DNA of 43,858 nucleotides, taken from a virus. The translations under genes and the position numbers were made by a program. The stretch covers positions 1 to 43,858 of the IMG/VR virus record IMGVR_UViG_3300020442_003262. One strand, 5' to 3'. The notes beneath the pieces are model-generated. The model saw only the letters and a list, made by a program, of their open reading frames with translations, was not told the origin of the DNA and ran no database searches. Position 1 is the first letter of the stretch, and each line of letters begins with the position of its first letter. This document shows positions 24,538 through 32,307 of the stretch, one piece after another.

Positions 24538-24924
24538 TTAATTTATTTTAGCGCAACGCCTTTTAGCTTTATTGAGTATATGATAATTATTATATAATAC
24601 AATAAACATTATATTATTCATTGATTGTAAACCCTTTTTAGATAGGGTTCCTCGTTTTAAATCGTATTGAACGGCTGGAGTAATTAAAGCAACTTTAGTC
24701 CATATTAAACTATTTGTTGATGGCTTTTCTCCAAAGATAGGATTTGCTTCTCTTACACAGTTGTATTTAGTTCCTTCTACTGTAGTCCATACATCAAGTG
24801 CTTGGAATAATGCAAAGGTTGCCCATTCAGCTGTACCAGGCGGGTCAGCTAGTTCAAATTGGAGTGTATATGGTGACGGCCTCTGTCTTTCCTTTAACTT
24901 TGATTGTATCGACAAATTGTACAT
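24538..24924 (-). CDS. Small membrane protein (DUF5658-like)
   Basis: The frame is open to 25212, but upstream of about 24900 it is antisense-free overlap with the cyclase gene in another phase. The likely start is the ATG at 24924, giving 128 residues and a 71-nt overlap with the cyclase end. The core AEWATFALFQALDVWTTVEG then TKYNCVREANPIFGEKPS and two hydrophobic stretches (LIWTKVALITPAV, NIMFIVLYNNYHIL) resemble small phage membrane proteins of the DUF5658 type. It ends in a basic KAKRRCAKIN. It is the last gene of the cyclase-curli unit. Confidence 0.65.
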   Translation of the reverse strand: MYNLSIQSKLKERQRPSPYTLQFELADPPGTAEWATFALFQALDVWTTVEGTKYNCVREANPIFGEKPSTNSLIWTKVALITPAVQYDLKRGTLSKKGLQSMNNIMFIVLYNNYHILNKAKRRCAKIN

Positions 24925-26704
24925 CTCTTGCTGGACAGCTATAATGTGTTTCCTGTCCCAACAACACTCGAACCCCATCATAATTTCTTGTTTGTCCTTC
25001 GAGTCTAGACGCCAAGTTGACTGCGTCTCCAATGACGGAATAGTCAAATCGAGCTTCTGAGCCCATGTTTCCGACGATGCATTCACCTGTGTTGATACCA
25101 ATACCAATATCAATCCTAGGTAAACCTTTACTTTCCAATTCAATAATGAATTCATCTGCTGCCTCCAATATTTCCTGAGCTGTGTCGATTGCTCTTGCTG
25201 CATGGTCTTCACATCTCAAAGGTGCGTTCCAAAATGCCATGATACAATCACCCATAAATTTATCAATTGTACCACCATTCTTGAGAATGATTTTTGTCAT
25301 TCTATCTAAATAATTATTTATAAGGTCAACTAACCCTGCAGGATTATTGAGAGTTTTATAATGTTCTGAGATTGGTGTAAACCCTACGATATCCATAAAC
25401 ATAAATGTCATATATCTTTGGTCACCACCAAGTCTTAATAAATCAGGGTTTTGTTGTAATTCTTTTACTAAGTCAGGAGATACATAGGTTCCAAATTGTT
25501 TCTTAATTTGTTGCCTTAACATATATTGACGATAGAAGTTATTGAAGGCCGTTGAAGTTAGTAAAATTATATATAATATTAGTATATAACTAAGGTCAAG
25601 GAGTATCTGCGAGCTGCTCCACAGAGACCAGCTGAGATATCCAGAACCAGCAGTCAAAGATACAAATAATAAACCAGATATCCATATCGGTAGATAATAC
25701 ATTGACAGTATTATTATTAATCCACCAACAGCCATAATTCCTAATTCAACTGTAGTAGTCCAAAGTGGACGTGAGATTGGATTATCAGATATGATTGTTT
25801 GTAAAGCATTTGCTTGTAATTGATGTGGATATAATAAACCGCCTGGTGTTGGTATTTGATTTGCTATACCTTTCGCACTTACACCAATTATAACGGTTTG
25901 TCCTTGTAAATCTGGTATTGGATTAAGACCATGATGAGTTTTTTCTCCATATTCATATTCAATAAATTTACTATTCCATTTTAACCATATACTTCCATCT
26001 GAATCTGTAGGTATATCAAAAGGTCTTAATACTATACCTTCGATACCAGCTTCATTTGTTTTTACTGTATAACTTTTTTTATTCTGTATTGCTCTTACTG
26101 TTTCTAATGGTAATGATGGATATAAATCTCCATTGATTTGAGATATTAATGGTATTCTTCTTGTGATATTATCTACCTCAGGAGATGCATTAATTAATCC
26201 TACACCCCAAGCTTGAGATTCTAATTCTTCTATATTGGTAATTAATCCATCATATTTGTATATAAAATTAAGTGGGTCAGTATTTCCAAAGGTTGCGTAC
26301 CCCACGTACGGCGCGCGCGTACTACGTCCACGTGCGTCTGCGTCCTGCGCAAGAATGATACCATTATCTTTTATCCATGATGCAAATACTTCGTCTCCAC
26401 CGAATCTATCTTTTTCCGGAAACATAATAGTAAATACAATCATACCTGCACCAGCATTACGAAGGTCTGATATCATTTGAGCGTAATTTTGTCTAGGCCA
26501 AGGGAATTGACCTATTTCTTCTAAAGATGTTTCACCAATATTTAATATAACAATATCAGTTGATTCTTTTTCTGGTAAGGATTGTATATATTGGTCAAAA
26601 ACATTTAACCTTGTTTGTTCTACTAACTGTGGGTCAGATATTCTAACACCAACTAATAATACTAATAGAATAATAGAAGTCCAAATGGACGTAAGATATT
26701 TCAT
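24854..26704 (-). CDS. CHASE2-domain class III adenylate cyclase
   Basis: 616 residues. One membrane helix (about 7-22), a CHASE2-type sensor outside the cytoplasm (about 30-310, with QLVEQTRLNVFDQYI, FPWPRQNYAQMISDLRNAG and VDNITRRIPL), three more helices (about 318-388), a short linker, and a class III cyclase domain (about 428-612). Catalytic residues are present: metal Asp438 (FMDIVGFT) and Asp486, adenine-selecting Lys482 (IDKFMGD) with Ser556, and transition-state Asn563 and Arg567 (GDAVNLASRLEG). It should make cAMP in response to an envelope signal. Codons 118-138 are strikingly GC-rich. It follows the curlin-like gene directly. Confidence 0.93.
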   Translation of the reverse strand: MKYLTSIWTSIILLVLLVGVRISDPQLVEQTRLNVFDQYIQSLPEKESTDIVILNIGETSLEEIGQFPWPRQNYAQMISDLRNAGAGMIVFTIMFPEKDRFGGDEVFASWIKDNGIILAQDADARGRSTRAPYVGYATFGNTDPLNFIYKYDGLITNIEELESQAWGVGLINASPEVDNITRRIPLISQINGDLYPSLPLETVRAIQNKKSYTVKTNEAGIEGIVLRPFDIPTDSDGSIWLKWNSKFIEYEYGEKTHHGLNPIPDLQGQTVIIGVSAKGIANQIPTPGGLLYPHQLQANALQTIISDNPISRPLWTTTVELGIMAVGGLIIILSMYYLPIWISGLLFVSLTAGSGYLSWSLWSSSQILLDLSYILILYIILLTSTAFNNFYRQYMLRQQIKKQFGTYVSPDLVKELQQNPDLLRLGGDQRYMTFMFMDIVGFTPISEHYKTLNNPAGLVDLINNYLDRMTKIILKNGGTIDKFMGDCIMAFWNAPLRCEDHAARAIDTAQEILEAADEFIIELESKGLPRIDIGIGINTGECIVGNMGSEARFDYSVIGDAVNLASRLEGQTRNYDGVRVLLGQETHYSCPARDVQFVDTIKVKGKTEAVTIYTPI

Positions 26705-27505
26705 TTAGTTTCCTTGTGTGACAGAAACGGAGCAACCACCAACAGTATTACATGTTTGACTTAGGCTATATGATTGATTTGTATCTCCGGTTTGAGTTAA
26801 ATTTAAATCAGTACCATAAGTTCCATTCAAGGTAATTGTTGCAGTGTGAGCACCAGTTTTCTTTTGTACGATTGATGCTTCATTATAATCATTATTAATT
26901 GTAAGATTTAATGTTTTATTTCCATTCTGCATTTGTTTAACATATACATCGTTATGGTCTCCATAGATATTTGCTATTATACTATGAGTGATTGAGCTTG
27001 AATCTTGTTTTTGGCTGCCTTTAAAATCATTTTCATCGCCATGAATATCTAATCTGACATAGTTTCCACCAGGTTCTGTTCCATCATAATTCCAATTTGG
27101 AGTTAAACTATTATTAAGTTCAAATCCTTGGCCAAATACAACGTTGTTATCATCACCCCAAACATGGAACTGAAAGTCATTTGCATTACATGGAGTTGTT
27201 GAACATTTTTGTCTAATATCAATATCGTTATTGACACCATCTAAATCTCCGCCCCAATTATAACCTGAACCCCAATCATCGGTATATCCAACATATAGGT
27301 TATTTCCTATTTGGTTTATTTTAACAGTATTGTTTTGATGGTCAAAAGAAAATCGAATTAAATTATTATATCCATACTGATTGACATTAATTTCAAAATT
27401 ATCTCCACCGTTAACTTGGTCAACATGGACGTGATTATCATCTGCATAAACAGATAATGATAAACTAACTAGACTGATTAATATATATTTCAATTCCATC
27501 TCCAT
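26705..27505 (-). CDS. Curlin-repeat secreted protein 1
   Basis: 266 residues. Signal peptide in about 1-21 (ELKYILISLVSLSLSVYA before DDNH). The mature part is Asn/Gly/Asp-rich with degenerate repeats of about 22-25 residues such as GDNFEINVNQYGYNNLI, QNNTVKINQIGNNLYV, GDENDFKGSQKQ and GDHNDVYVKQMQNGNKTLNL. These match the G-x-x-N-x(5)-Q pattern of curli subunits CsgA/CsgB, which form amyloid strands. A Cys pair lies near the C-terminus (TCNTVGGCSV) and another near 100. The 5' end overlaps the FecR gene by 41 nt. CsgG and CsgF genes upstream give the likely export route. Confidence 0.85.
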   Translation of the reverse strand: MEMELKYILISLVSLSLSVYADDNHVHVDQVNGGDNFEINVNQYGYNNLIRFSFDHQNNTVKINQIGNNLYVGYTDDWGSGYNWGGDLDGVNNDIDIRQKCSTTPCNANDFQFHVWGDDNNVVFGQGFELNNSLTPNWNYDGTEPGGNYVRLDIHGDENDFKGSQKQDSSSITHSIIANIYGDHNDVYVKQMQNGNKTLNLTINNDYNEASIVQKKTGAHTATITLNGTYGTDLNLTQTGDTNQSYSLSQTCNTVGGCSVSVTQGN

Positions 27506-28619
27506 CGTTGAATTGCATTACGCCTTCGTAATCATTAGTGACAACATCTATAAATCCACTGCCACCGGCTCCTATTATAATATTTATAACTCCATTGACA
27601 CTTCGAAAGAAAACTAAATTACCATCTTGTTCAAATACATTAAATTGAGAATCTTTGTTAAATCCTACTTGTGCACCTTTTAATTTAAATCCACTTAAAT
27701 TTCCACCGCCTTCTTGCGCGTCCGCGAGAACAACTTTAGTTCTTTCTAAAGCTTCAACTACATCTAATAAATCTCTTAAAAAATCAACATCTAATAAATC
27801 GATATCGAGTTCTGAGAATTCTAAATCTTCTTCAGTTTCTGCTAATGCATCTGTTTCCAATTCGTTAAATTCTAAAAAATCAACATCTAATATACCACCA
27901 TCTTGGTCCTGGTCATCTTTAGCCTGTTCTTCAATTGCTTGTTTAACCTCACTTGGTGGATTAACAATAAACATATTATCAATCATACTTGGTGTTAAAC
28001 CATTAATTGTGACTGGAGTTGTAGGGTTAGAATCCATTGTACTTACCATTGTAGCTTGATAAGGTTGGTTTAATATAACCTCGCCTGCTAAATTCGATAC
28101 ACTGATTTCACCCGACGGGTCACCGTTCGCATCAGGTAATAATACTATAAGACTTCTTCCTAACTCATCAATTGTTGTAGTAAAATCTGTACCACGAATA
28201 CCGATGGTTGCTGTAGGAGTTTGTATATCAATGTTTGCTTTATTAATTAATCCTTTGGAACCTGAAGCAAACCTGGCAGTTCCCATAACCATTCTCATAC
28301 TCATTTTCGAAAGATTAGGATTAGGGTCATAATATATTTCATCGATATAAACTTCTGTATGTTCTTTCAAAGCCAATTCGGCTGAATCAATGAATTCAAT
28401 TAGCATACTTCCCATTGCGGTTTCTGCTCTATCATATAATTCTACGGGAAGTACTGCACCAGATACAACAATCTCCTCTTGTTGTCTGACGATTTTACCT
28501 ACACCTGTAGATTCTACTATATCACCAATGGAGTCAGCATAAACTGACCCCACTAGTAAAAAACTACTAACTATCGTTAGCTGAATCTTTCTGATTAATT
28601 TGAATGACTGAATTATCAC
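27465..28619 (-). CDS. FecR-domain periplasmic protein
   Basis: 384 residues. Signal peptide in about 1-29 (IQLTIVSSFLLVGSVYA before DSIG). A FecR domain follows (about 30-190): SMLIEFIDSAELALKEHTEV then YIDEIYY, GTARFASGSKG and the hallmark IDIQTPTATIGIRGTDFTT. The middle (about 235-300) is very acidic with two DVDFL repeats, and the end is Gly-rich and beta-like. FecR-domain proteins are often encoded with CHASE2 sensors in bacteria, so it may be the periplasmic partner of the cyclase. Its start overlaps the second curlin-like gene by 53 nt. Confidence 0.9.
   Translation of the reverse strand: MIIQSFKLIRKIQLTIVSSFLLVGSVYADSIGDIVESTGVGKIVRQQEEIVVSGAVLPVELYDRAETAMGSMLIEFIDSAELALKEHTEVYIDEIYYDPNPNLSKMSMRMVMGTARFASGSKGLINKANIDIQTPTATIGIRGTDFTTTIDELGRSLIVLLPDANGDPSGEISVSNLAGEVILNQPYQATMVSTMDSNPTTPVTINGLTPSMIDNMFIVNPPSEVKQAIEEQAKDDQDQDGGILDVDFLEFNELETDALAETEEDLEFSELDIDLLDVDFLRDLLDVVEALERTKVVLADAQEGGGNLSGFKLKGAQVGFNKDSQFNVFEQDGNLVFFRSVNGVINIIIGAGGSGFIDVVTNDYEGVMQFNDGDGIEIYINQSS
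27581..27588 (-). promoter_or_regulatory. Possible late promoter box for curlin-like gene 1
   Basis: TATAAATA on the minus strand inside the FecR gene, 75 nt before the curlin-like start. The position is compatible with a late internal promoter, but a chance match in AT-rich coding DNA cannot be excluded. Confidence 0.3.
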
Positions 28620-29295
28620 TTGTAATATCCAATGTTATGATAGCATTTGGTGTAGCACATCCACCACCTGAAGCTGCGCATGTTCCAGATAGTTGGTTGA
28701 TATCTACATCGGCACTATCGCCATTTAATTCAACGGTCATTTCGTTTGCGCCATCTTTTTGTAAAGTGTTAATATTATTTGATGCACCGGTTATATCCCA
28801 GTTCCAAACTATATCATCACTTTCCCAATCGACATCAAAAACATTTGAACTACCGATAACAATTAAATCAGCATTTAAACGTTCTGCACTAAAAGCTGAA
28901 CCTTGGTCTAAGTCAAAAGTATTACTTGAACCGGTTACGCTAAAGTTTATATCAGAATCATCTGAACTGCCTGTACTACCAATCGTCCAATCTATTTCAT
29001 TTGAATCACCAGTAAAATCTAACTTATAAGTTGAATTATCAGCGGTGACTGGACCAAATAAAATATTTGAATTACCAGTAAAATCTAAATCAAACTCAAG
29101 TGTTGCACCAGTGATTAACATTGCAGTTGAAGAAGATGAGAAGTCATTACCTCCTATCTTGTTTCCAAAACCTTCTTGGTCAATGTATAATTTAAGTGTA
29201 TCACCAGTTTGAGTTATTATGATTTCGTTATCATCAGTATCAGCGAAAATGGTTGTTGTCGACAATAATAAAATTAAACTAATTAGTTTCTTCAT
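28567..29295 (-). CDS. Curlin-repeat secreted protein 2
   Basis: The ATG at 29295 (MKKLISLILLLSTTTIFADT) gives a clean signal peptide and 242 residues; the frame is open 11 codons further upstream, inside csgG. The mature part has about nine spaced repeats of the form D-F/I-TG-D/S-SN, for example LDFTGNSNILF, LDFTGDSNEID, FSVTGSSNTFDLDQG, VIGSSNVFDVD and DITGASNNIN, ending in two stricter curlin-like units (VDINQ, IQINQ). A TCAASGGGCAT Cys pair sits near the C-terminus, as in curlin-like protein 1. Likely an exported amyloid-type subunit or nucleator. Confidence 0.85.
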   Translation of the reverse strand: MKKLISLILLLSTTTIFADTDDNEIIITQTGDTLKLYIDQEGFGNKIGGNDFSSSSTAMLITGATLEFDLDFTGNSNILFGPVTADNSTYKLDFTGDSNEIDWTIGSTGSSDDSDINFSVTGSSNTFDLDQGSAFSAERLNADLIVIGSSNVFDVDWESDDIVWNWDITGASNNINTLQKDGANEMTVELNGDSADVDINQLSGTCAASGGGCATPNAIITLDITSDNSVIQINQKDSANDS

Positions 29296-30205
29296 TTTCG
29301 TTATACCCCTCGATTTCCCAATAGCCACGCCTGTGACCTTGGTGTATTAATTCCAACACGGCTGCTTCAATTGCAGTTCGTGTTGCGTAAGTCACTGACT
29401 CATTATTACCCACACCATCCTCGTACTCTACAAGTTCGGTACCTTGCTCGATAAATCTAAATATATCTCCGCTTTTACCATAACTCAATACAGTTTTACG
29501 AGTCTGTACATTAAGTAAAACCTCTCCCGTAAGAACTGAAACAGCTCTCATCGAGACAGTCACAACATCTTGACGATATTGTTTTGTAGCACCAATACCA
29601 AGATATCTAGCACCTCTACCGCCAGATTTGATATTAGTATCATATCCTATTACACCACCTTCGATAATCATACCAGCAAAAAGTAGTGAATTTAATTCTT
29701 TAAATTTTTCTTCTCCATTCTTTTTAGCAAAGTCTTGTCTTGCTGAACGGATGATTTGTCTTTCTCTTACTAAATGGTCTAATCCATTTCTTTCTACAAC
29801 CCTAAACCATTTACCTTGGCCGGCTGTTTTTAATGCATCAATAACTAATTCAACACCACCCTGTGATACTGCAGTAGAAAAGTCAGCAATATTATCCTTT
29901 GGTTTTCTTTGTCCAGTTTTATCTGCAAATTGATATACAGCAACAACTGGCATTTCTTTAGCTGGTGGTAAATCTAAAAGTTCTATGTATGATGGTAATC
30001 TTATTACTTCTGGTTCTTCTACACAGAGAAATGGTAAAGCTTTTTCAAAAGAACGTCCTACGGCTTTTGCATAGTTAAGCAAATCGTGTGGATACTGTTC
30101 TCCCCAAAAATCTGGATTACATTCCTGTGGATAGTCTGTAAATCTTGGATGCATTGCGCACCCAGATATAATAAGTAATAAACTAAGAACCGTCGCCCGA
30201 ACCAT
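29279..30205 (-). CDS. csgG: CsgG outer-membrane curli secretion channel
   Basis: The start at 30205 is chosen because GGAGG lies 8 nt upstream. It gives a lipoprotein signal, MVRATVLSLLLIISGC, with lipidation at Cys16. The core matches E. coli CsgG closely: VVAVYQFADKTGQRKP, DFSTAVSQGG, GKWFRVVERNGLDHLVRERQ, IIEGGVIGYDTNIKSGGRGA then RYLGIGA, VLTGEVLLNVQTRKTVLSYG and FRFIEQGTELVEYE. About 60 extra residues with two Cys lie between lipobox and core. In the constriction loop the Phe56 equivalent is kept, but the Tyr51 and Asn55 equivalents look replaced by Lys and Asp. It should form the nonameric pore for the curlin-like proteins. Confidence 0.95.
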   Translation of the reverse strand: MVRATVLSLLLIISGCAMHPRFTDYPQECNPDFWGEQYPHDLLNYAKAVGRSFEKALPFLCVEEPEVIRLPSYIELLDLPPAKEMPVVAVYQFADKTGQRKPKDNIADFSTAVSQGGVELVIDALKTAGQGKWFRVVERNGLDHLVRERQIIRSARQDFAKKNGEEKFKELNSLLFAGMIIEGGVIGYDTNIKSGGRGARYLGIGATKQYRQDVVTVSMRAVSVLTGEVLLNVQTRKTVLSYGKSGDIFRFIEQGTELVEYEDGVGNNESVTYATRTAIEAAVLELIHQGHRRGYWEIEGYNENEETN

Positions 30206-30782
30206 CGACATCACCTCCAAAGTATCCAGTGCCGATTGGTATTTCTATTATTGTTTCAGTTCCATCTGAATCTACAATTGTCATTCTAATATATTCGGTA
30301 CCATCGTCTCCGGTTATCACTTCGTAGGTAATAGTTGAGCCTTCTAAAACAAAAGACCCAAATCGTACTGGGTTATCGTTCGAAAACATGCTTTCAACAA
30401 GCTGTTTTGCCATTTGAGCATATATTCTCGATTCTAAGTTTCTTATAAATTTCGCTAATGTAGTATTATCAGCTTCTCTTTCAGCAGCTTTTCTAGCTGA
30501 TTCAAGAGCTTCTTCTATGGCTTTCTTTCTTGAATGTTCTTGGTTTTCGATTGTAAGATAATGCGCACCAGTTCCTTGTCCATTAAATGATGGATTCTTA
30601 AACTTGTGTACAATTTCTTGAGCTTGAAGTGGTTGAGCCATAAAGAACCAAATCCCGCCACCAATTAGAAGTAAACCAAGAGTAAATGAAAACAACTTTT
30701 GTTTCCAACTGCGTCTTTCTGGACGCATAACTTCATAGCCGTAAGTATTTAACTTACGTAATATATGTCCTTCAGTTATCAT
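30183..30782 (-). CDS. csgF: CsgF-like curli assembly factor
   Basis: The start at 30782 follows AGAGGA and gives 199 residues. A basic N-region of about 30 residues precedes a hydrophobic segment (about 33-52) ending AQPLQA, which could be cleaved like a signal peptide or stay as an anchor. The mature part starts QEIVHKFKNPSFNGQG, matching the CsgF motif (F-x-NP-x-FGG) that plugs the CsgG pore. It then has YLTIENQ, a charged helix and FGSFVLEGSTITYEVITGDD then GTEYIRMTIVDSDGTETIIE like the CsgF C-terminal beta region. It overlaps csgG by 23 nt. CsgE and CsgD are not seen. Confidence 0.85.
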   Translation of the reverse strand: MITEGHILRKLNTYGYEVMRPERRSWKQKLFSFTLGLLLIGGGIWFFMAQPLQAQEIVHKFKNPSFNGQGTGAHYLTIENQEHSRKKAIEEALESARKAAEREADNTTLAKFIRNLESRIYAQMAKQLVESMFSNDNPVRFGSFVLEGSTITYEVITGDDGTEYIRMTIVDSDGTETIIEIPIGTGYFGGDVDGSGDGS

Positions 30783-31050
30783 TTTTTCCTCTTTTCTTTT
30801 CATTTTCTCTCATTTCTAAAATAACATCTACTTTCTGCTGTAAACGTATCATATCTTGGTCGAGCATACGCACTTGGTCAATTAGTTTAATTAATTGTAC
30901 ATGCATTTTTTCTACTTCTGGTTCTATATTCTCAGATATAAAATTCCATACAAAATATACATAATAACCTAAACCAATTACCATAACTGTTGGAAATCCA
31001 TAATCCTTTATTAAACTTACAACGGTAAAATCTGGCGCTACTACATCCAT
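30772..31050 (-). CDS. Single-span membrane coiled-coil protein B
   Basis: 92 residues: IKDYGFPTVMVIGLGYYVYF then VWNFIS as a membrane helix (about 14-38), followed by a long coiled coil (about 45-85) and a basic tail. It is a clear paralogue in layout of the gene just upstream (D-x-G-x-P-x(5)-G-Y motif, then heptads). Such proteins resemble BhlA/UviB-type holins in architecture, but here they are immediately upstream of csgF, so they may instead be envelope partners of the export system. Overlaps csgF by 11 nt. Confidence 0.75.
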   Translation of the reverse strand: MDVVAPDFTVVSLIKDYGFPTVMVIGLGYYVYFVWNFISENIEPEVEKMHVQLIKLIDQVRMLDQDMIRLQQKVDVILEMRENEKKRGKNDN

Positions 31051-31346
31051 TAATCTCTTCTCACATCAACTTTGCCATCTTCAATAAAATTTTCTGAACG
31101 GGAAATTCTTTCGATATCAGGCCTGAGTTCTAACGCTGAACTGACTAATAAATCTATTTTAATCATTTCATTATTCATTGTACGAACTCTATTCTCTAAA
31201 CTATTTACAAACATGGTTAAAGTTTTAATATTATCTACTAAACCTTCCATTATTTGTTTCATCACTAGGAAGATAAAATAACCCATGACCAAAGCTCCTG
31301 CTATAGGCAGGCCTAAGTCACCGATTATTGACAATATATCTTCCAT
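31050..31346 (-). CDS. Single-span membrane coiled-coil protein A
   Basis: 98 residues: IIGDLGLPIAGALVMGYFIF then LVMKQI forms a membrane helix (about 7-31), then heptad-like repeats (NIKTLTMFVNSLENRVRTMN) and a charged tail. It is the first gene after a TATAAATA box (10 nt before the ATG) and leads the curli-FecR-cyclase genes, so the module is probably transcribed late. Holin-like topology is noted; no known family is certain. Its stop overlaps the start of protein B. Confidence 0.75.
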   Translation of the reverse strand: MEDILSIIGDLGLPIAGALVMGYFIFLVMKQIMEGLVDNIKTLTMFVNSLENRVRTMNNEMIKIDLLVSSALELRPDIERISRSENFIEDGKVDVRRD

Positions 31347-31356
31347 AATACATTGT

Positions 31357-31364
31357 TATTTATA
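31357..31364 (-). promoter_or_regulatory. Late promoter box for the curli-like module
   Basis: TATAAATA, 10 nt before the ATG of membrane protein A, in a 35-nt intergenic gap. It is the only obvious promoter heading the genes from 31346 leftward, which suggests late expression of CsgF, CsgG, curlin-like proteins, FecR and cyclase. Confidence 0.6.
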
Positions 31365-31381: not shown

Positions 31382-31609
31382 TTACACTATTTCAATAGAT
31401 AATATTGTATCTAATTGGATATCTTCCCATTTAGAACGGTCGATATCCCATACTAATATCTTATCTGAATCGCTTTGAAATGTACGAGGGATATTATAAG
31501 TTCCTGTAAGAACTTTATTTGAGGAAAGGGATTTGAACTTAACTTTACAGTTGTTGTTCGTTAATAGCTTTTGAGCTTCGTTAAAATTGTACACTGACTC
31601 CACATCCAC
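31382..31609 (-). CDS. Small DUF2693-like protein
   Basis: 75 residues: a helix (VYNFNEAQKLLTNNNCK) followed by a small beta domain, VKFKSLSSNKVLTGTYNIPR and ILVWDIDRSKWEDIQLDTIL. The layout resembles the DUF2693-type short phage proteins with an SH3-like barrel. Function unknown. The start overlaps the iscA-like gene by 29 nt. Confidence 0.6.
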   Translation of the reverse strand: MDVESVYNFNEAQKLLTNNNCKVKFKSLSSNKVLTGTYNIPRTFQSDSDKILVWDIDRSKWEDIQLDTILSIEIV

Positions 31610-31892
31610 ATGATGATTTTTCTTTGGGGTTTATTATTTTAAAAAATTCTTGTATACCTTCTACGACGTAATCTAAGGTTGCGTCCTCAAGGAAGGGCAT
31701 AGATTGTTCATCGATAACGACATTGAAGGAGCCGTAGTCAAACACGTGGTCATTATCATGTACTTGGGATTCAAAAGCAAAAACGTATTCGAACCCAGCA
31801 CAACCACCACCAGAAACACCAATCCTAATTGTATCATGCGTTCCGTTAGTTTTGAGGATGAGTTTTTGGATTGCTTCATTCGTCAGTTCCAT
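31581..31892 (-). CDS. A-type iron-sulfur carrier (IscA/ErpA/HesB)
   Basis: 103 residues, full length for the family. Cluster ligands are Cys31 in GVSGGGCAGFEYVF and the C-terminal Cys95 and Cys97 in SSCGCGVSVQF, matching Cys35, Cys99 and Cys101 of E. coli IscA. It also has VVIDEQSMPFLEDATLDYV. It would carry Fe-S clusters from the adjacent IscU-like scaffold to targets. A HesB-like gene is known in some marine phages; pairing with IscU is less usual. Overlaps iscU by 17 nt. Confidence 0.93.
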   Translation of the reverse strand: MELTNEAIQKLILKTNGTHDTIRIGVSGGGCAGFEYVFAFESQVHDNDHVFDYGSFNVVIDEQSMPFLEDATLDYVVEGIQEFFKIINPKEKSSCGCGVSVQF

Positions 31893-32307
31893 AGTAATTG
31901 TGTCTCCTATGCGCCGTTTTCTTTTCCCAATCTTCGATTGCGTGTTTGATAGTTTCTTCAGCTAATACAGAACAATGTAATTTTATAGGTGGTAATTCTA
32001 ATATATCAGCTATTTCTTTATCTTTAATTAATTTAGCTTCTTCTAATGTTTTACCTTTTAACATTTCGACAAACGTGGTTGATGATGCAATTGCTGAACC
32101 ACAACCATAGGTTTTAAATTTTACATCTAATATAGTATCATTATCATCAAGTTTTAAATCCAGCTTCATTACATCTCCACAAGCTGGAGCACCTGCAAGT
32201 CCAGTAGCGACCATAGGGTCTTTCGGATCGAATCGTCCTACCGCGTGTTTTTCCGGGTTAGCAAGGACAGATTCGAACCGTTCTACGACCTGCTTTGAAT
32301 ATGCCAT
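31876..32307 (-). CDS. iscU: Iron-sulfur cluster scaffold IscU
   Basis: 143 residues. All scaffold ligands are present: Cys43 and Asp45 (GAPACGDVMKLDL), Cys69 (KTYGCGSAIASS) and His111-Cys112 (KLHCSVLAEE). The LPPIKLHC segment is the chaperone-binding motif (LPPVK in bacteria), so host HscA could act on it. It would assemble 2Fe-2S clusters with a host cysteine desulfurase, as no IscS is seen here. It starts on a TAATG overlap with the previous gene. The last 12 residues are phage-specific. Confidence 0.95.
   Translation of the reverse strand: MAYSKQVVERFESVLANPEKHAVGRFDPKDPMVATGLAGAPACGDVMKLDLKLDDNDTILDVKFKTYGCGSAIASSTTFVEMLKGKTLEEAKLIKDKEIADILELPPIKLHCSVLAEETIKHAIEDWEKKTAHRRHNYYGTDE

Follow-up and report, generated by a model that had tools for sequence, protein, structure and literature searches.

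Curli-type (type VIII) secretion genes have already been described in phages. CsgF and CsgG, accompanied by hypothetical partners, were reported in 2020 with a proposed role in 'sibling capture' (PMC7029224), and in 2022 CsgF, CsgG and two curlins were found together with a FecR protein, an adenylate cyclase and a protein labelled 'HK' in pelagiphage podoviruses and myoviruses (PMC9599517). The latter study documented metatranscriptome expression and an ocean-wide distribution of the module, noted that these partner genes are not present in bacterial type VIII secretion operons, and used CRP-csgD control as an analogy. In the same year a curli operon was described in phage Melnitz, for which a role in lysis timing was proposed (PMC9004378). 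Here we analyze an IMG/VR viral record of 43.9 kb (IMGVR_UViG_3300020442_003262, positions 1 to 43,858; hereafter the window), which with very high confidence is a further member of this published module. The original prediction regarded the set, complete with FecR and cyclase, as a novelty, a claim that falls since exactly that set is reported in PMC9599517, and, the module being already known, another copy matters little. What the present analysis adds makes a question testable, namely why curli genes and a FecR/CHASE2-cyclase pair always travel together in abundant marine phages. We hypothesize that the window carries a late-expressed curli-type export module in which FecR mimics the cargo and reports the state of export to the cyclase, a reading to which we give an even chance of being right.

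The module comprises eight consecutive minus-strand genes, from 31346 to 24854, which overlap or abut their neighbors and encode, in this order, two transmembrane (TM) coiled-coil proteins, CsgF, CsgG, a first curlin-repeat protein, FecR, a second curlin-repeat protein and a CHASE2 cyclase. The gene set, order, single strand and coordinates originally predicted were all recovered, and Pfam matches support the identities. T4-like genes flank the module on both sides, including those for a baseplate gp6-like protein, a baseplate hub, the single-stranded DNA-binding protein gp32, the helicase loader gp59 and a T4-type exonuclease, and a ribonucleotide reductase is also encoded; the anatomy of a curli-type pore with its own cargo and a FecR/CHASE2-cyclase pair in a T4-like phage had been correctly read. 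An assembly chimera, which the original prediction had named as a possible refutation, is not supported, since in viral contigs of separate origin the module has the neighbors that it has in the window, on the left (lysozyme, NifU, HesB) as well as on the right (PNKP phosphatase, gp59, gp32), in some relatives (L006, L020, L194) with both sides on a single contig.

Conservation of the module was assessed by scanning IMG/VR with a CsgG alignment, which gave 386 relatives, the best 80 of which were kept for mapping the eight families, and among these 80 the same gene order is found almost everywhere. Where at least 7 kb is available downstream of csgG, a curlin and FecR are present in 48/48 loci, the cyclase lies downstream in 47/48 and a second curlin is found in 39/48; in the 48th locus (L076) the cyclase is inverted and located just upstream. 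Likewise, where the upstream sequence extends over 3 kb or more, CsgF is present in 64/64 loci and the two TM proteins in 58/64. A second search anchored on the cyclase found csgF, csgG, a curlin and FecR in every one of the 33 cyclase loci for which 6 kb or more of upstream sequence is available. The other condition foreseen as a refutation, that related phages would carry the genes unlinked and degenerate, did not hold in view of this fixed order and of the invariant catalytic residues of the cyclase described below. In five loci (L048, L049, L050, L052 and L072) no curlin 2 was detected and the cyclase is followed, on the other strand, by two TM coiled-coil-like open reading frames (ORFs); the TM pair, therefore, need not stay within the operon. 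The viral-type module, complete or in part, was also seen in contigs of metagenome-assembled genomes assigned to Flavobacteriales, Saprospirales, Rhodobacteraceae, Pirellulales and Pelagibacter (L085-L090), which have the appearance of phage sequences placed in bacterial bins. A CsgG is also present in OR851715.1 (L004), an unverified 1.5-kb 'Salmonella phage' contig with a coverage of 2, where it may be a bacterial or contaminant gene rather than a phage gene.

The strong similarity to CsgG and CsgF that had been claimed is borne out for both proteins. CsgG, the outer-membrane lipoprotein export pore (29279-30220, minus strand), matches its Pfam family with an E-value of 2.6e-53 and E. coli CsgG in the PDB with 3e-49, aligns end to end with the E. 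coli structures, and carries a lipobox, SGC, read from the sequence. The pore of E. coli CsgG is formed by Tyr51, Asn55 and Phe56 (PMC6957492); compared with it, the constriction loop of the window protein has one additional residue and no equivalent of Tyr51, while Phe56 is kept or, among viral variants, is Leu. CsgF, the extracellular chaperone and CsgG plug (30183-30803, minus strand; Pfam CsgF 3.7e-15), gave no match to PDB sequences by phmmer. Its CsgG-binding N-terminus retains the F-x-NP-x-F motif (HKFKNPSFNG, a stretch conserved among the viral proteins, and FQFRNPNFGG in E. coli), a segment holding the phenylalanines critical for the CsgF-CsgG complex (PMC6957492). Regarding the cargo, both curlin-repeat proteins are, from their sequences, exported by Sec; curlin-repeat protein 1 (28567-29328, minus strand), which ends in the tail IQINQKDSANDS, contains three curlin-type strand motifs, a number reached by 0.6% of shuffled sequences, and curlin-repeat protein 2 (26705-27505, minus strand) contains seven strand-Q motifs against a maximum of six in 2000 shuffles. 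The Pfam Curlin_rpt matches (0.0023 and 0.015, respectively) are both too weak to pass Pfam's own cut-off. For curlin 2 a beta-solenoid is predicted (predicted local distance difference test score, pLDDT, 79.7; predicted template modeling score, pTM, 0.77), and although Foldseek returned no significant match, VIA-align gave Z-scores up to 17.9 to beta-helical and solenoid folds; such matches show a common arrangement, not ancestry. Repeats in excess of shuffled sequences, together with the predicted solenoid, qualify the window proteins as putative curlin-repeat cargo. The features of type VIII secretion found are, accordingly, a CsgG pore lipoprotein, a CsgF with its binding motif and curlin-repeat cargo, but not CsgE (PF10627), which was detected in none of the eight records tested, HTVC008M and Melnitz among them and the window being a fragment.

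A possible physical link between the curli genes and the signaling pair is offered by the FecR-domain protein (27465-28619, minus strand; Pfam FecR 3.3e-7), whose gene lies between those of the two curlins. It is composed of a predicted signal peptide, a FecR/anti-sigma domain of periplasmic type, an acidic linker and a C-terminal beta domain ending in IEIYINQSS. A hydrophobic residue followed by x-[VIL]-x-Q occurs within the last 11 residues of all 55 distinct complete phage FecR proteins, as well as in 47/67 copies of curlin 1 and 32/40 of curlin 2, in contrast to 7/502 other ORFs, 1/58 CsgG, 0/53 CsgF and 0/47 cyclases. In a second, separately fetched set the tail was present in 41/41 FecR against a background of 6/473, giving 96 distinct phage FecR in total, although these sequences are related and hence do not represent independent events. 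When 41 FecR with identities as low as 28% are aligned, the terminal glutamine (Q382) never varies and conservation reaches 90% or more at each of the two hydrophobic positions, while the flanks vary. The same tail also ends CsgB of E. coli (IRVTQR) and at least one curlin in most of the bacterial csg operons examined, and mature phage curlins often start with this motif (NDIYVTQ), as found in 31/70 and 16/42 of them compared with 1/780. A stricter pattern, G..N.x.x.Q, is present at only 4/55 FecR ends and was abandoned in favor of the looser tail. In the AlphaFold model, residues 311-381 are predicted as a beta domain with strands spaced by about 10 residues (pLDDT 83-89 except at the very end), and the model superimposes on the PupR CSS domain, a periplasmic signaling fold (Z 14.8, root-mean-square deviation 2.6, 134 residues). 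The structure search was filled by matches to the FecR domain, none of which informs on the fold of the C-terminal domain. A canonical anti-sigma role was rejected, as the match is confined to the FecR domain (66-151), the N-terminus before it resembles a signal peptide, and no cytoplasmic anti-sigma region is present. The CsgB/curlin-like tail in 96/96 phage FecR appears to be a new point, and for its origin a functional mimic is a safer reading than common ancestry with curlins.

The last gene of the module encodes a CHASE2 protein with a class III adenylate cyclase domain (24854-26704, minus strand; Pfam CHASE2 1.2e-41, Guanylate_cyc 4.7e-20), which matches PDB cyclases with E-values down to 2.7e-35 and has its catalytic residues complete, with D438, K482, D486, S556, N563 and R567 at the metal, purine and transition-state positions. 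D438, K482, D486 and R567, that is, both metal aspartates, the adenine-selecting lysine and the catalytic arginine, are invariant in about 60 viral cyclases (the copies covering those positions), and the catalytic asparagine is replaced by serine in 10 of the viral proteins. A further ORF (24538-25212), with weak similarity to DUF5658, is read in a different frame and shares sequence with the cyclase gene at the 3' end of the latter. At the opposite end of the module, TM coiled-coil protein 1 (31050-31346, minus strand, 98 aa; phrog_18771 4.2e-29), which contains no histidine, and its paralogue, protein 2 (30772-31050, minus strand, 92 aa; phrog_18771 1.9e-27), have no Pfam domain. The name 'histidine kinase' under which these proteins were published is not justified, because no HisKA or HATPase match was found in the two window proteins and no histidine is conserved across the copies of the window, HTVC008M and Melnitz, all small (92-115 aa). 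The absence of kinase features appears to be a new point, and the label should be dropped from the literature.

An exact T4-type late promoter-like octamer, TATAAATA, is located at 31357-31364 on the minus strand, about 10 bp before the first ORF of the module. Of 81 viral loci, which are partly redundant, 14 have an exact octamer in the 80 bp preceding the module, compared with 1.8% of random 85-bp windows, and the whole window contains 15 such octamers against 8.5 expected, so that the match is no more than suggestive. The module is probably transcribed late in infection, and the distribution of the octamer suggests late expression in the window's clade and not in general across relatives. 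A phage lysozyme (32831-33298) is the upstream neighbor of the module in this clade. Between the two, just before the module, lies a NifU-like/HesB-type iron-sulfur pair (31581-32307), which in L006, L010, L013, L015, L020, L192 and L194 is located between curlin 2 and the cyclase, NifU alone being detected in L192 and L194; since it lies before the module in the window and inside it in these relatives, this pair travels with the module.

Based on these features, we hypothesize that CsgF-CsgG would export both curlins and that these may assemble into amyloid on the surface of the infected cell, altering its adhesion; for the export of curlins itself our confidence is moderate. FecR would offer its cargo-like end in the periplasm, docking either on the cargo site of CsgG or on curlin strands, and the docking state could be relayed to CHASE2, setting the synthesis of cyclic AMP (cAMP). 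That FecR docks as a cargo mimic on the pore or a curlin, with the cyclase reporting amyloid export as cAMP, is the more tentative part of the proposal, possible but on balance doubtful. If true, it would represent a second-messenger sensor coupled to export, a kind for which the literature searched offers no curli example from any organism, installed in hosts mostly devoid of cyclases and CRP-type receptors. Among 61 genomes of a Pelagibacter-assigned genus, for which completeness was not reported, neither class III (0/61) nor class I (0/61) cyclases were found, and the only CsgG lies on a 3-kb contig with viral gene order (L089), most likely phage sequence. As SAR11-type hosts mostly have no cAMP receptors, cAMP would have to act via a target not yet known.

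Several observations weigh against this proposal. CsgE is an accessory periplasmic gate without which curli export is inefficient, and the efficiency of export is uncertain because CsgE is absent from the records tested. The late-promoter octamer is not general among viral copies of the module, and no clumping was seen in Melnitz cultures (PMC9004378). Pfam Curlin_rpt matches no FecR and an hhalign comparison of the FecR C-terminus with curlins is weak (P 0.007, probability 5%), so a recognized Curlin_rpt domain there was rejected, and the tail itself may be convergent. The nearest baseplate relatives share only about 39% identity with the window, and neither they nor an NrdB comparison point to its host. 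Finally, a cAMP-binding domain is present in only 5/61 genomes of the Pelagibacter genus, all of them in one kind of 870-residue frame, and none is encoded by HTVC008M or Melnitz. This rare frame (L101-L103), with a weak and possibly duplicated cNMP-binding domain, is the only cAMP-receptor candidate seen in the genus. Because no cyclase and almost no cAMP-binding domain are found there, the classical CRP-csgD route is unlikely in a Pelagibacter-type host; the scarcity, which appears to be a new point, would, should SAR11 be the host, count against the analogy drawn in PMC9599517, and a different cAMP target or cAMP export would then be needed.

Other functions are conceivable for the same genes. 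In the lysis-timing role proposed for Melnitz (PMC9004378), a CsgG-CsgF pore left ungated without CsgE would, with the TM pair, perforate or depolarize the envelope in the manner of holins and spanins, FecR and CHASE2 sensing the damage. The lack of CsgE in the eight records, the late-promoter octamer, the lysozyme just upstream of the module in the window and close relatives, and the holin/spanin size and layout of the TM pair are all in accordance with it; however, matches to holin and spanin profiles are insignificant (phrog_4898, E 0.063; phrog_739, E 0.082), HTVC008M has no annotated lysozyme adjoining the module, and the two conserved curlin-repeat proteins, the CsgF motif and the FecR tail are left unexplained, for which reasons we consider this role unlikely. 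The missing gate and the altered constriction loop would also fit a pore admitting nutrients or cofactors for the infected cell, regulated by FecR and the cyclase, as suggested in PMC7029224 and PMC9599517, but the retention of curlin genes in 48/48 loci and of the CsgF plug motif fits export better, and uptake seems to us very improbable.

Host aggregation and superinfection exclusion, listed as possible roles in the original prediction, had both been proposed in PMC9599517. A purely defensive function, in which surface amyloid, the expected product of the module, keeps competing phages from adsorbing and cAMP signaling is incidental, is improbable: a late promoter in the window is late for exclusion, and a linked cyclase conserved with all its catalytic residues is unlikely to be incidental. 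To the proposal of an export module with a cargo-mimicking FecR, the conserved tail contributes a concrete physical link between the curli genes and the FecR/CHASE2 cyclase.

Among known systems, HTVC008M, the HTVC023P-type podoviruses and the pelagimyophages (PMC9599517, PMC7029224) have the same genes in the same order as the window, whose module differs in its position relative to gp32/gp59 and otherwise only in sequence, its CsgG being 51.5% identical to that of HTVC008M over the matched part and its cyclase 42.4%. Methylophilales phage Melnitz (MZ577097) also shares the order, with an annotated FecR, two curlin-repeat proteins and a cyclase, the latter with a serine in place of the catalytic asparagine of the others; csgA and csgB were reported as missing in the Melnitz paper (PMC9004378), whereas the record annotates the two curlin-repeat proteins. 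The E. coli csgBAC-csgDEFG and the alphaproteobacterial csgF-csgG-curlin operons likewise encode CsgG, CsgF and curlin cargo with a CsgB-like tail, but differ from the phage records tested, in which no CsgE was found, and FecR, a CHASE2 cyclase and the TM pair are absent from all 12 bacterial csg loci examined (11 distinct, as L095 is the L185 operon). The envelope-to-cAMP signaling pair of the original prediction is supported by bacterial counterparts: FecR beside a CHASE2 cyclase has been described in Campylobacterota (PMC9239204), and a FecR ORF lies within about 4 kb of a CHASE2 cyclase in 19/40 alphaproteobacterial loci. In these clusters FecR adjoins a class III cyclase as in the phages, but csgG is found near the cyclase in 0/40 loci and the curlin-like tail in only 1/15 of the FecR proteins. 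An origin of the whole set from one bacterial operon was therefore rejected, and, since the FecR-CHASE2 pairing and the csg operons are separate in the bacteria examined, the phage module joins two bacterial systems.

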